Source of the DNA: Arthonia radiata
Lineage: Eukaryota > Ascomycota > Arthoniomycetes > Arthoniales > Arthoniaceae
NCBI GenBank assembly: GCA_002989075.1
Contig: PSQN01000014.1
Span: forward strand, 620,001 to 684,000
Direction of reading: 5' to 3'
DNA: 64,000 nt
A program made the translations under genes and the position numbers. The notes below the pieces were generated by a model that ran no database searches, had not been told where the DNA came from, and saw only the letters and a list, made by a program, of their open reading frames with translations. Shown in pieces: positions 48,395-53,987 of the stretch (positions are counted from its first letter, which is position 1; each line of letters opens with the position of its first letter).

Positions 48395-51300
48395 ATGCCT
48401 GGCTTGTTCGGCAGCCAGCTACTTGGAAGTGGACGCTATAGCCACAGCGGGATAGGGAACAACGCCATCATGGCAAGCTCACCGGCCAGTCTGCCTGGCA
48501 GCCCTAGCTTTGAGTCTCAAGTCGTCTCGCACTTCGGAATAGCGCCAGGAATATACGGCAGCTTCGTCCCGGGATTCAATACTGTCCGACGTTTTCTTCT
48601 TCAGAAGACGCGGGTGGACATCGGACGTGTAGCTGCTTACGCAGTCCTGGTATTCGCACTCAGCAACAGCGTCAGGTACCTTTATGCAGAAGCCACGAGC
48701 ACCTTTTGGCGCTTTTCCGAGTACTTCATGACCCAGGCAAATATCACGCAGCGAGAGCCGTTGTGCAAGACCTAAATACCAGAAACACACGTGTTGTTTG
48801 CTGACGGATTGTAGACCGAGAGCTAAACACCTGGCTAGCTGCCAAGGTTACGCCGAGCAACACGCGTGTGCTGAGTGCTAGTACAGTCAGTAGTAACACA
48901 TCAGACGTCAAGAGTGCCACATCCGACGGCAACAGTCTTTTCGGCGCCCCTATCATATTTGACGGCTATGGCCGTCAGGTGCGCAGTACAAAACACGGTG
49001 CACAACCTCCTCCTAAAAAACGAGACACATGGGGTGATAATGTTGAGGACAACAGCGGTCGGTCTCCAGCAGTTTTGAACTCGCGCATCCTGAGCTGACG
49101 TTTTCGTAGGTCGCATCCTGCTCAAGCCCGGCGAGAACTCGCGAACTTGGTGAGTCCCAAACCAACCCGATGTCTCATCTTGTTTGGCTCGTTCAGTAGA
49201 CAAAGTGCTGGCGTTGCATTACAGGGCCAGGTTACATCACAAGCCTGCCGCAAGGACTGCTGTATACATTGCTCCTGCTGACACAAATTCTTTATCAGGT
49301 TTCGCCACGAAGGTAATAAACTTGTCTCATCTATCACCGATTGTTACTTACTCAGAACAAAGGCAATTGGTTCTTCTTGCGTGTGAACGAGCAGTATGAT
49401 TACAAATCCGGCAAAGTCAACTCGACGACGCTCAACATATCTTGCCTCGGCTGGTCCTCCCAGCCGCTTCTCGACCTTATGGAAGAAGCCTCGCAATTCT
49501 CCAAGATCGAGGATGATCCTCAGACAGCGATCTGGATGCATCTTGGGAACGCACTTTGGGATCTGTCCGCTGAGCGTCCTGCCCGACCACTGAACACTGT
49601 AGACCTCGACTCGAAGGAAAAGGAAGATCTGATCCAGGACCTGACTCGCTACCTCGCGTCACGGTGAGCATTTTTTCCCTTCTTTTTCTCTTTTCTCTCT
49701 TGGCTGTCTTTCGTGGCTGAAACGGAGGCGCTGTATGAAAACACTCCTTCTGAAAGCAAGACACACACGCTTGTGTGCTCTCTCAGAATGCATTGTGCTG
49801 ACACGTAGCGCTCTAGGCAGTACTACTCAAATGTAAGTGAACAGCTCCACAGTCATTGCAATGGACACATATACTGCGAGATCTGGCTTCAGTGAGCCGA
49901 AGTCGTCTTGAAGGGACGGGTTAATGTCGGCTTCGAACGCTTAATATCGCTCATCTTGCTAACTCGTTGCGATCAGCGCGGCATTCCGTATCGACGTGGC
50001 TACCTTCTCTATGGCCCGCCAGGTACTGGAAAGACATCACTAAGCTCGGCCATCGCTGGAGAGTACAAGCTCGATCTTTATTGCATGTCTCTGAGCGCTA
50101 AGGGAATGACCGATTCTATTCTGGAGCGGCTATTCCGACATCTGCCCGAGCGGTGCGTGGTGCTCTTGGTAAGTCTTTCCGAACCTGTGTCATCGACTCT
50201 TTTGCGGACACGTCGTACTTACTTGATGTAGGAGGATGTTGACGCTGTTGGGGTAACGAAACAAAGACAAGGATTGCGTGACGGTAATAGCATGGCTGAT
50301 GCCCTGGGGCAAGGTCGGACTGACAATCAAAATAGGCGATAGTGAGAGCGATGAAGAAGACTCTGATGACTCAGGAAAGGCTCAGTCTCGGAATCCGAAG
50401 ACTGACAATTATGATAACTTCGGCATTCCTAACAGCCCTCTCACACTATCAGGTTTGCTCAACGTAATTGGTATGCTCCTCCCCCCATTCAATCGATCCG
50501 AAGAAAACCTGACATACTCGTTCTTGCAGACGGCGTCTCCTCCGCCGAAGGCAGGATCCTGATAATGACGACGAATCACCGTGAGAACCTCGACAAGGCG
50601 CTTATCCGCCCCGGTCGGATTGATCGCCAAATTTACATGGGCCATGTTACCCAGGAAGTTGCCAAAGCCATTTTCCTGCGCATGTTCACCCTGTCACCCG
50701 AAGAGGCGAAAATATTGGCGCTAAGAATCAACAAAGTGGAAGAGCTTGGACGGGCAAAGCGACGGCCCAGTGGTATTATTGAGATGGTTGACAATTCGGT
50801 CAAGGGCTCCCCAGCTGTTCGCCCTCTTCGCCACCGAGCTGGCACTCTGGCGACACCAGCGTCGCCAATCTCACCTTTCATGCTTCGCCGTGACACTGGG
50901 AGTGTGTCGGCAAAGGACGATGAGCAAGCTGTCACGAGCCTCGAGGCGTATGCCATGACCTTCGGAAGAAAGATCCCAGAGCACTCACTGTCGCCAGCGG
51001 AAGTGCAGGGTTTCCTCCTCAGGTACCGCGACGACCCACTGCAGGCTCTGACATGCTGCGACACGTGGATTGAGGAAACGATGGCCAAGAAACGCAAGAA
51101 GGATCGCAAAGCTGTCAGGCTCGAAAAGGCACCCGCCGCTAAAGCACGCGAGCAGGGAGCAGACCGAATTGGCGCCTACGCAAGGACGGAACGTCCTCAA
51201 GCAGCGAGAAGGGCCAGCGGAAGACCTCAAAAGCGCACGGAGCCAGAAGAGCGGACCTCTGCTGCAGATGACGATGAGGATGATAATGGTGATGATGATG

Positions 51301-51482
51301 AGGAGGCGGAAGCGGAGGAGGCGGCGGAGGAGGAGGAGGAGGAGGAGGAGGAGGAGGAGGAGGAGGGGCAAAGCGAACAGCCTTCCTATCGGGTTGCCGA
51401 GGTCGAGGACGTTGCAGAATACGATGAGAACGACCCTGAAAGACAAATAGATCGAAAATTGAACATGGTGGAGATGTGGTGA
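48395..51482 (+). CDS. BCS1-like AAA ATPase, ten exons
   Basis: Exons 48395-48764, 48815-49057, 49110-49149, 49299-49312, 49363-49663, 49817-49832, 49977-50168, 50232-50283, 50336-50470 and 50530-51482 give 771 aa in frame. N-terminal BCS1_N part: a membrane helix (about 78-95) and the LYRELNTWLA block, then FRHEGNWFFLRVNEQ. AAA part: [21 protein letters not shown] (Walker A 341-348), VVLLEDVDAVG (Walker B), ILIMTTNH and LIRPGRIDRQIYMGHV. BCS1 itself inserts the Rieske protein into mitochondrial complex III, but fungi have many BCS1-like paralogues. This one has a long divergent basic/acidic tail (poly-Glu near the end), so the exact role is open. Intron 1 must be GC-AG to keep frame. Exons of 14 and 16 nt are microexons. 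ATG 48,470 is an alternative start. Confidence 0.85.
48765..48814 (+). other. GC-AG intron (BCS1-like intron 1)
   Basis: The donor is T|GCAAGA and the acceptor TTGTAG, 50 nt, with CTGAC 9 nt before the acceptor. It is the only splice found here that connects the two conserved frames and yields the family block PLYRELNTWLA. The nearby GT (at 48,763) leaves the wrong frame. Confidence 0.65.
49664..49816 (+). other. introner-like intron (BCS1-like intron 5)
   Basis: A 153-nt intron whose last 70 nt resemble MFS intron 3 (53,416-53,571). The block TGCTCTCTCAG, then ATGCATT, then GTGCTGACACGTAGC matches about 30 of 34 positions by eye. The branch-point motif GTGCTGACAC is at 49,795-49,804. The 5' part is pyrimidine-rich. 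Confidence 0.65.
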
Positions 51483-52105: not shown

Positions 52106-53987
52106 ATGTCTGACGCCGTTCAATTCCCACCGGGCGACAAAGCCAACCCCAGGAATTGGCCAGAATGGCGCAAATGGTCTATAGTCGGCATCATCATTCC
52201 AATTGATCTTACAGTCAGCTGGGGTGCCTCGGGATTCTCGCCAGCGCAGATGAAGTTTCAATCCGACTTCGGTGTGTCATCCGAGGTTGCTGAGCTTGGT
52301 CTCAGTCTCTATGTATTGGGGCTTGCACTTGCGCCAATGTGTCTCGCGCCTCTCAGCGAATACTTCGGCCGCTCGTCAATCTATATTGGGTCTTATGGCA
52401 TCTTCTTGGTCTTTCTTCTAGGCACCGCGTTGGTGCAGACTCTCAGCGGCTTTCTAGCACTGAGATTACTGTCAGGATTGTTTTCTGCTGTGACTATAGG
52501 TGAGTGTGCTTGCATGTGTGGCCATTAATGATAGATTGATACTGAGAAGACGAGCGAAGCCAACTTTGGCGGCACTATAGCCGATCTCTGGCCTCACCAG
52601 TCTACTGGAATGCCCATGAGTCTGTTCCTGTAGGTCAGGAGCATTCCAAATACTTCTTGTCAGCAGCCCTTTCTTGCTCGAGGTAGCATCGCTTGAAGGC
52701 TATCATGGGTTTATTTTGGCAATGGCTGCTGCGAGGTCACTAAGCTGACGTCTTTCCCCACAGTTGGGCTGCTACGTGCGGAAGTCCGTCAGGCTACTTC
52801 TTACTGTCTTTCGTCGCTCAATATCGAGATTGGCGATATGTCTTCTGGGCTCTGCTGGGCATTTGCGGCGGGCTTTGGGTCTTGATGGTCGTCATACTGA
52901 AGGAGACGCGTCATACGACTATTCTGCAAGCCCGAGCCATGAAGGCTATGAAAAGCAAGCAGAAAGACACAGTGGCCGCAAACGATGATGTCAGCCCAGA
53001 TAGTCCTGAGATCATCTACAACAAATTGACCAGCCATCGCAGTGCGCGAGAGCTGTTCAAGGTGTCATTAGGCAGACCTTTTCGATTTTTGCTTACCGAA
53101 GCCATCATTGTCTTTGGCGCGTTATACAATGGGTATCTGTATGGCTTGAGCTTTCTCTTCAACACCGCTTTTTCAATCGTGTTTGGCACGATGGGCCACG
53201 GCTTCAAGACCTATCAAGTGGGCCTAGCATTCCTCGGTATTTGCTTTGGCATCACGATGGGGCCTGTCACAAACTTGTGGCAAGAGCGATACTACCAGCG
53301 CAAGACACAGGGCAGGCATGACCTGAACATCCCGGAGGCGCGCGTTCAGCTGGGCCAGATCGCGGCAATAGCGCATCCGGTGAGTCTCTTCTGGTTTGCT
53401 TGGACGAGTTACAAGGTAAGTCCACAGTCGACACACTATTTCTATTGTAATCTCTTGAGGGCCTTCCACTCGTTGCAATGAGGGCACCGTCTGAACGAGC
53501 CCGTTCTGAACGCAAACACACTTGCGTGTATGCTCTCTTAGGATGGGTTGTGCTGACACGTAGCACTTCAGTCGATCCACCCCGTGGTGCCCATACTGGC
53601 GTCTGCACTCTGGGGCTGGTCTTTTTACACCTTAATCCTGATGACGTGAGTCTGTCATCCTATCTATTGACTGGAAGTGCTAACAGCAACTCAAGCTACA
53701 TGTACACCGAGGATTCATATGGCGTTTACTCCGCTTCTGCGCTTGCAGGTCTAGGATTGATCAGAAACTTGGCAGGCGCAGGATTCCCGCTCTTTGGCAT
53801 GCAGATGTTTCACAGATTAGGAAACCAGTGGGCGGCGTCACTTCTGGCGTTTCTCGCGGTGCTGCTCGTTCCGATACCGTTCATCTTATCTCGGTATGGA
53901 CTGCGATTACGGCGCAAGAGCCCTTGGGCAAGCAAGCATATTACGCAAGAAGCCGGAGAGGACGGACAGCGCCCTATGAACGATTAA
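52106..53987 (+). CDS. MFS transporter, DHA1 (drug:H+ antiporter-1) type
   Basis: Exons 52106-52499, 52560-52629, 52764-53415, 53572-53645 and 53696-53987 give 493 aa. The start MSDAVQFPPGDKANPRNWPEWRKW is the usual cytosolic lead into helix 1 of fungal DHA1 transporters. Then come the helix 2-3 loop LAPLSEYFGRSSIYIGSY (the MFS motif A position), NFGGTIADLWPHQSTGMPMSLFL, a central loop with LKETRHTTIL (the family PET-R motif) and AARELFKVSLGRPFRFLLTE. The end is SYGVYSASALAGLGLIRNLAGAGFPLFGMQMF. About 12 transmembrane helices are expected. It would export small molecules at the plasma membrane; the substrate cannot be told. Introns 2 and 3 are long (134 and 156 nt). The last acceptor could also be the AG at 53,686, adding three residues. 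Confidence 0.87.
53416..53571 (+). other. introner-like intron (MFS intron 3)
   Basis: A 156-nt intron related in its 3' half to BCS1-like intron 5, 3.7 kb away in an unrelated gene. GTGCTGACAC lies at 53,550-53,559, and the shared stretch runs from TTCTGAA (about 53,505) to the acceptor. Confidence 0.65.

Follow-up and report, generated by a model that had tools for sequence, protein, structure and literature searches.

Introners described so far and the present case

The systems closest to the one reported here are the introner-like elements (ILEs) of Dothideomycete fungi, which have been worded as hundreds of near-identical copies and of which paired elements in one gene lie 145-626 bp apart with an exon between them (PMC4457414). 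Fungal introners have been interpreted as RNA-based, and the ascomycete families are stated to have neither terminal inverted repeats nor target-site duplications (PMC9860276). The mechanism of their insertion is unsettled, and arrays of introners bear on the origin of new introns. In the present work, a stretch of 64,000 nt of Arthonia radiata (assembly GCA_002989075.1, contig PSQN01000014.1, positions 620,001 to 684,000; hereafter the window) was analysed together with matching loci elsewhere in the genome. Two introns of unrelated genes in the window, one BCS1-like and one of the MFS type, almost certainly belong to an introner family, here called family A. This family is a new member of the introner-like elements, and what sets it apart are arrays of copies abutting without an exon between them and a dimer that was probably copied as one unit.

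As with the Dothideomycete ILEs, related introns occurred in unrelated genes, with canonical splice sites, several families per genome, decay over time and two elements per gene; unlike the Dothideomycete pairs, the units here abut without an exon, and the two systems are likened by description and not by sequence identity (PMC4457414). Four element strings of these families had no match in the texts of published papers (supplements not covered). The sister stwintrons of Hypoxylaceae and Xylariaceae are compound introns too, and they multiply as wholes and leave no target duplications; they are nested, however, in that the donor of one intron is interrupted by another, whereas whole introns stand side by side here (PMC12403724, PMC8469720, PMC9024468). 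The transposon-type introners of algae and other eukaryotes likewise multiply through the genome as introns, although many of them carry target-site duplications or terminal repeats, and such a duplication was not found here (PMC9860276). At the recursive-splice ratchet points of Drosophila an acceptor and a donor are juxtaposed inside a longer intron, as in our arrays; in contrast, the join here is formed by two mobile introns, for which stepwise splicing is only proposed (PMC8605326). Moreover, reverse splicing at already spliced positions was raised in a 2012 review (PMC3443670), and seamless insertion has served as an argument for an RNA route driven by the spliceosome (PMC8469720, PMC3443670). 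No description of abutting introner arrays was found in the literature searched, which did not cover the 2012 ILE paper or any supplements, so that their absence from print is unproven; introners abutting without an exon between them are seemingly new.

Homologous introns in two genes of the window

An earlier note on the window had reported homology between intron 5 of the BCS1-like gene (49664-49816, plus strand, 153 nt) and an intron of the MFS gene (53416-53571, plus strand, 156 nt), and these positions and lengths proved correct. The local alignment of both introns scored 73, a value reached by none of 2,000 shuffles (mean 16.4, maximum 28), and four other introns of the two genes, with roughly set bounds, scored 13-22. 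By BLASTN, 54/65 positions were aligned with one gap (65.3 bits). The similarity of the 3′ ends, which had been put at 30 of 34 positions, was itself real, the figure being slightly high: 27/34 positions matched without gaps in the last 34 and 31/38 in the last 38.

The BCS1 copy (gtgagc...gctctag) matched positions 25-157 of the family A profile, likeness to the family having been lost over its first ~24 nt, while the MFS copy (gtaagt...cttcag) matched at full length (1-157). A shared core, GTGCTGACACGTAGC, was identified by motif match and alignment at 49795-49809 and 53550-53564 (both plus strand); it occurred exactly twice in the window, and four matches were obtained when up to three mismatches were allowed (0.53 expected). 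The CTGAC within this core is, to judge by its motif, the likely branch point. Splicing in silico kept the reading frame in the BCS1-like gene ('...YLASR|', once the following intron, 49833-49976, was taken out as well) and in the MFS gene ('...FAWTSYK|SIHPVVPILA...'). The Pfam domains BCS1_N and AAA flanked the BCS1 junction, one on each side, and MFS_1 stopped three residues short of the MFS junction. An exon of only 16 nt (49817-49832, plus strand) separates the BCS1 introner from the next intron.

Both sequences being introns that carry general intron signals, chance or shared splicing signals were considered as the sole cause of the likeness. This explanation was rejected and its probability is negligible: the alignment score was never reached by shuffling, dozens of full-length homologues were found, and a reversed control of 264 kb (C5:520001-784000; C-numbers are contig labels of the genome, with coordinates after the colon) gave zero matches with any of three profiles. 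The interpretation of the pair as introner-like elements, put forward in the earlier note, was upheld: homologous copies occupied AG|G sites of unrelated genes, were mostly oriented in sense and lacked target-site duplications. Both the further copies looked for in the genome (at least 68 sites, in unrelated genes) and a similarity above random level were found. On the other hand, the proposal that the proximity of the two copies reflects recent or local spread was not supported, as the pair was 58% identical overall, ranking 55th of 60 and at the 5th percentile of all pairs.

Size and divergence of family A

Family A consists of a ~157-nt GT-AG unit running from GTAAGTCTACAGCC to GCTCTAG. A 72-nt query from the BCS1 copy gave at least 42 matches on 15 of the 16 contigs, and the addition of other copies and the consensus as queries raised the total to at least 68 sites on the same number of contigs, tandems merged. 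Of these listed sites, 53 were read and 15 were located only. The fetched loci contained 64 profile matches at E≤0.001; three of them, with scores below 50, were left out of the table of similarities (61 copies), including the downstream member at C3:1363. Among the matches listed, every contig but C8 (0.47 Mb) had a site, and about one was expected there from its size.

Mean pairwise identity was 0.70, with 0.95 for the best pair (61 copies), and identity to the consensus had a median of 0.81 and a maximum of 0.91 (63 copies). Given such low values, the copies read did not point to a burst of very recent date, and family A would represent an older or weaker burst than the wording of near-identical copies used for ILEs conveys. 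Segmental duplication was rejected for the pair with 95% identity (C11:285133, C10:101424) and for the three related dimers described below, whose flanks were unlike by eye over 15 bases on each side.

Abutting head-to-tail arrays

At seven loci, two family A copies abutted without any exon between them (C3:1363, C6:472, C10:1143, C13:750, C13:2111, C14:915 and C15:327). Five of the seven joins led from AG directly to GT, the C6 join having AA for AG and that of C13:2111 GC for GT, and at all of them the downstream unit retained its whole donor beside the end of the upstream unit. A longer array (C10:1219250-1220240) comprised four A units, with two A-A joins not clean, followed by units resembling family B, the third of which matched over its first 30 nt only. 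Joins involving families B and C were also found: a clean C-A join on C9, an A-C join on C5 sharing one G, a B-C join without AG on C16, a C-C-C array on C14 with one of two joins clean, a C-C join without AG on C1, and decayed C-C joins on C12 and C3.

Had 68 insertions been spread evenly over AGG or AGGT sites, of which either all or one in four were open, 0.005-0.078 abutting A-A pairs would be expected; the observed clustering of sites would raise this number several-fold, to a total still well under one. Removal of the whole dimer restored the domain in both dimers lying inside known domains, namely ATG22 (C14:915642-915953) and ABC_ATPase (C10:1143037-1143349). Furthermore, the upstream unit was nearer to the consensus in five of the seven dimers, three of which probably derive from one event.

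We consider RNA-based stacking guided by splice junctions to be the likeliest cause of the arrays, with a probability of roughly 0.6. The ~157-nt unit brings along both splice sites (5′ and 3′), a hairpin and a likely branch point, and by virtue of these signals it could be removed as an intron when lying in sense inside a gene; the homology and the reading frame are observed, and removal as an intron in genes would follow from them. Most likely, the unit would spread as excised intron RNA, placed by the spliceosome at AG|G of transcribed sequence, and the inserted RNA copy would then be fixed as DNA. If the junctions of resident introns are favoured targets, new copies would settle against old ones and build head-to-tail arrays without an exon, and a dimer could then be copied as one unit of ~312 nt, as is supported by three loci in different surroundings, weakly so for one of their two clades. 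Arrays in which an acceptor meets a donor, lineages and families are mixed and the orientation is preserved are a footprint predicted by such a splice-site-guided RNA route and not by random DNA insertion.

A stronger version, which we hold only tentatively and regard as rather less probable than its opposite, is that introners home on splice junctions, the spliceosome reinserting excised RNA preferentially at existing junctions and thereby stacking introns with exons of zero length between them; the stacks would leave whole, or stepwise via the acceptor-donor joins, and would spread as composite introns. If true, homing would be a route to long compound introns.

Genes, strand and target sites

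Coding flanks across the spliced junction were scored in 53 units, and the tally was limited to the 33 with flanks of 150 nt: 19 had coding flanks in sense, one in antisense and 13 in neither, compared with 466, 435 and 1,099 among 2,000 random positions of C5 scored in the same way. At C9:2191861 and C5:745915 the 'exon' flank was another introner, so that the coding scores there mean little. The 13 units without coding flanks may lie in untranslated regions or outside genes, and several copies without GT (for instance, at loci L018 and L023) had flanks with no coding signal. The best reading phases upstream and downstream agreed in 20 of 33 units (11 by chance). Among the spliced frames of these 33 units, eight lacked a frame of at least 20 residues on each side; eight of the remaining 25, picked by hand, were examined with Pfam together with the two window genes. 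A domain spanned the spliced junction in six of these ten proteins (SDR, Helicase_C, Rpb1 domain 5, ATG22, midasin lid and ABC_ATPase), three had domains not spanning it and one had no domain. The Pfam families at the junctions differed between loci, showing that the copies reside in unrelated genes.

The insertion sites read AG|G, with A in 31, G in 41 and the following G in 23 of 51 units. Target-site duplication was not detected in these 51 units (three of 54 having been dropped for low score or short flanks), as the values for lengths 3-8 were equalled by 11 to 50 of 100 shuffles and that for length 2 by five. Terminal inverted repeats were not seen in the family A consensus, judged by eye. 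Helitrons insert between A and T, and a Helitron origin was rejected, A preceding the element in 5/51 units and T following it in 7/51.

These data bear on a different explanation, in which family A is a non-autonomous DNA transposon with incidental splice sites that inserts at AG|G on either strand, selection leaving the sense copies; arrays would then arise because the element favours its own ends as targets, and dimers would be mobile because their outer ends are normal. Such an element could account for the 13 units outside recognised coding sequence and for one neighbouring pair lying head to head, and most introner families outside the ascomycetes bear transposon marks (PMC9860276). However, neither target-site duplications nor terminal inverted repeats were seen in the sets just given, abutting units are otherwise all head to tail, and the ascomycete families are stated to lack both marks (PMC9860276). 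We regard the transposon as unlikely, though it is the most serious of the alternatives.

Kinship of array partners and a probably copied dimer

Dimer partners were usually not each other's closest relatives. Among the 60 relatives of its mate, the downstream partner ranked 14th at C6:472, 15th at C10:1143, 16th at C13:750, 37th at C13:2111, 49th at C15:327 and 50th at C14:915, while the C3:1363 pair was 49% identical. Moreover, the copy at C13:750374 was 94% identical to that at C10:1143194 on another contig, whereas their downstream partners were only 71% identical to each other.

This kinship is relevant to the possibility that the elements are introners but that their arrays arose by local tandem duplication, or from concatemers copied from a circular intron. 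Some partners are indeed close: the likeness of the pairs at C13:750 and C10:1143 stood at the 97th and the 94th percentile, respectively. Within the C10 array, unit 3 was the closest relative (rank 1) of unit 2 and was 82% alike to unit 4, so that this array probably includes local duplication. As a general cause it is improbable, clearly more so than the transposon, in view of the ranks of the six dimers, the closer kinship across contigs just described and the arrays in which different families are joined.

Under RNA-based stacking, a composite intron could itself be copied, and a candidate was found. In a tree of the copies, the bootstrap of which had not settled, the downstream members C14:915797, C13:2111094 and C6:472042 formed a clade (support 100/92), and their upstream members formed a clade of those three alone with weak support (87/70). 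Shuffling of the tree labels (47 and 51 of 500) involved six rows only and was uninformative. Mean identity within the trio was 0.824 for the downstream members, reached by 95 of 20,000 random triples, and 0.794 for the upstream members, reached by 390 of 20,000. The upstream members had GTAT or ATAT in place of the consensus GTAG, and the flanks of the three loci differed by eye. On the plainest reading, a single dimer of ~312 nt has probably spread as a whole to three unrelated sites, which would suggest that whatever the spliceosome removes gets copied.

Sites of family A were clustered, 20 of the 68 lying within 20 kb of another, compared with a mean of 5.1 and a maximum of 16 in 1,000 runs of uniform placement, none of which was as high; the null here is uniform placement, and weak copies beside strong ones are more easily detected, as only the best candidates were scored. 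Neighbouring copies were seldom close relatives. The likeness of ten near or abutting pairs ranged from the 5th percentile, where the window pair stands, to the 97th. Given this wide range, shared hot spots fit the clustering better than local spread.

Hairpin structure and weighing of the proposed RNA-based route

The hairpin of the family (TTCTGA...TCAGAA) was located in the BCS1 copy at 49748-49788 by predicted folds, and the corresponding region of the MFS copy at 53504-53543 by alignment (both plus strand). The best-folding copy reached -52.3 kcal/mol (z -3.75); z was -2.45 for the copy nearest to the consensus, -0.67 for the near-consensus copy C11:285133, and -0.96 and 0.37 for the window copies. 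Across 60 copies, 7 had z below -2 and the mean was -0.46. The RNAalifold consensus was weak (-1.2 kcal/mol), and no covariation was detected in the hairpin, positions being paired in 81.5% of the cells of 33 copies vs. 81.4% after shuffling of partners. Since pairing was the same as in the shuffled set, the hairpin appears inherited rather than kept up, and it was probably part of the mobile form and not maintained after insertion, for which the indications are weak.

Several observations weigh against RNA-based, junction-guided stacking. The 13 units outside recognised coding sequence and the head-to-head pair, a C copy facing an A copy at C5:745.9 kb, have this bearing, as do the close partners at C13:750 and C10:1143 and the likeness of units 2 to 4 in the C10 array. 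In addition, a number of joins have decayed or are missing AG or GT, and only the upstream test of the trio is independent because the trio was spotted through the likeness of its downstream members. The relation of hairpin energy to similarity with the consensus was weak (rho -0.30, p 0.019), and that of the energy of the whole element was not clear (rho -0.18, p 0.15). Finally, both splicing and the RNA intermediate are deduced from DNA sequence.

Families B and C and other features

Family B was found downstream of the A array on C10 and had nine genome matches among the matches listed, three of them in that array, while family C was found beside a decayed A copy at C5:746 kb and had 18 among the matches listed. 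The three families could be aligned with one another at the 5′ end and, less closely, in a 3′ region resembling CTGTGCTGAC. In the 264 kb of C5:520001-784000, the A and B/C profiles gave 12 distinct matches at E<0.01, of which five were in the window, within 10.1 kb. Besides the BCS1 and MFS copies, these were two introns of 140 nt derived from B/C-type introners, each with an in-frame join and apparently in one gene, at 58114-58253 (plus strand, GC-AG, E 5.6e-6) and 59597-59736 (plus strand, GT-AG, E 8.8e-10), and a decayed B/C-type copy at 56458-56591 (minus strand, E 1.4e-14), whose surroundings had no visible coding sequence.

Dense groups were observed at two loci. One of them (L010, C3:1363492-1366290) spanned 2.8 kb, with every copy in plus orientation: besides an A-A dimer and a C-C pair in decay, it held one C copy and two A copies. 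The other (L047, C5:745780-747083) combined a decayed A copy with three C copies, the latter distributed over both strands, and included a pair of head-to-head neighbours.

In the window, the 3′-terminal segment of the BCS1-like gene, which extends from a run of GAGGAGG through the stop codon, occurred as two tandem copies (51240-51650, plus strand), the second copy following the first stop. Furthermore, minus-strand frames overlapped at 54685-55682, and their translations were internally repetitive.

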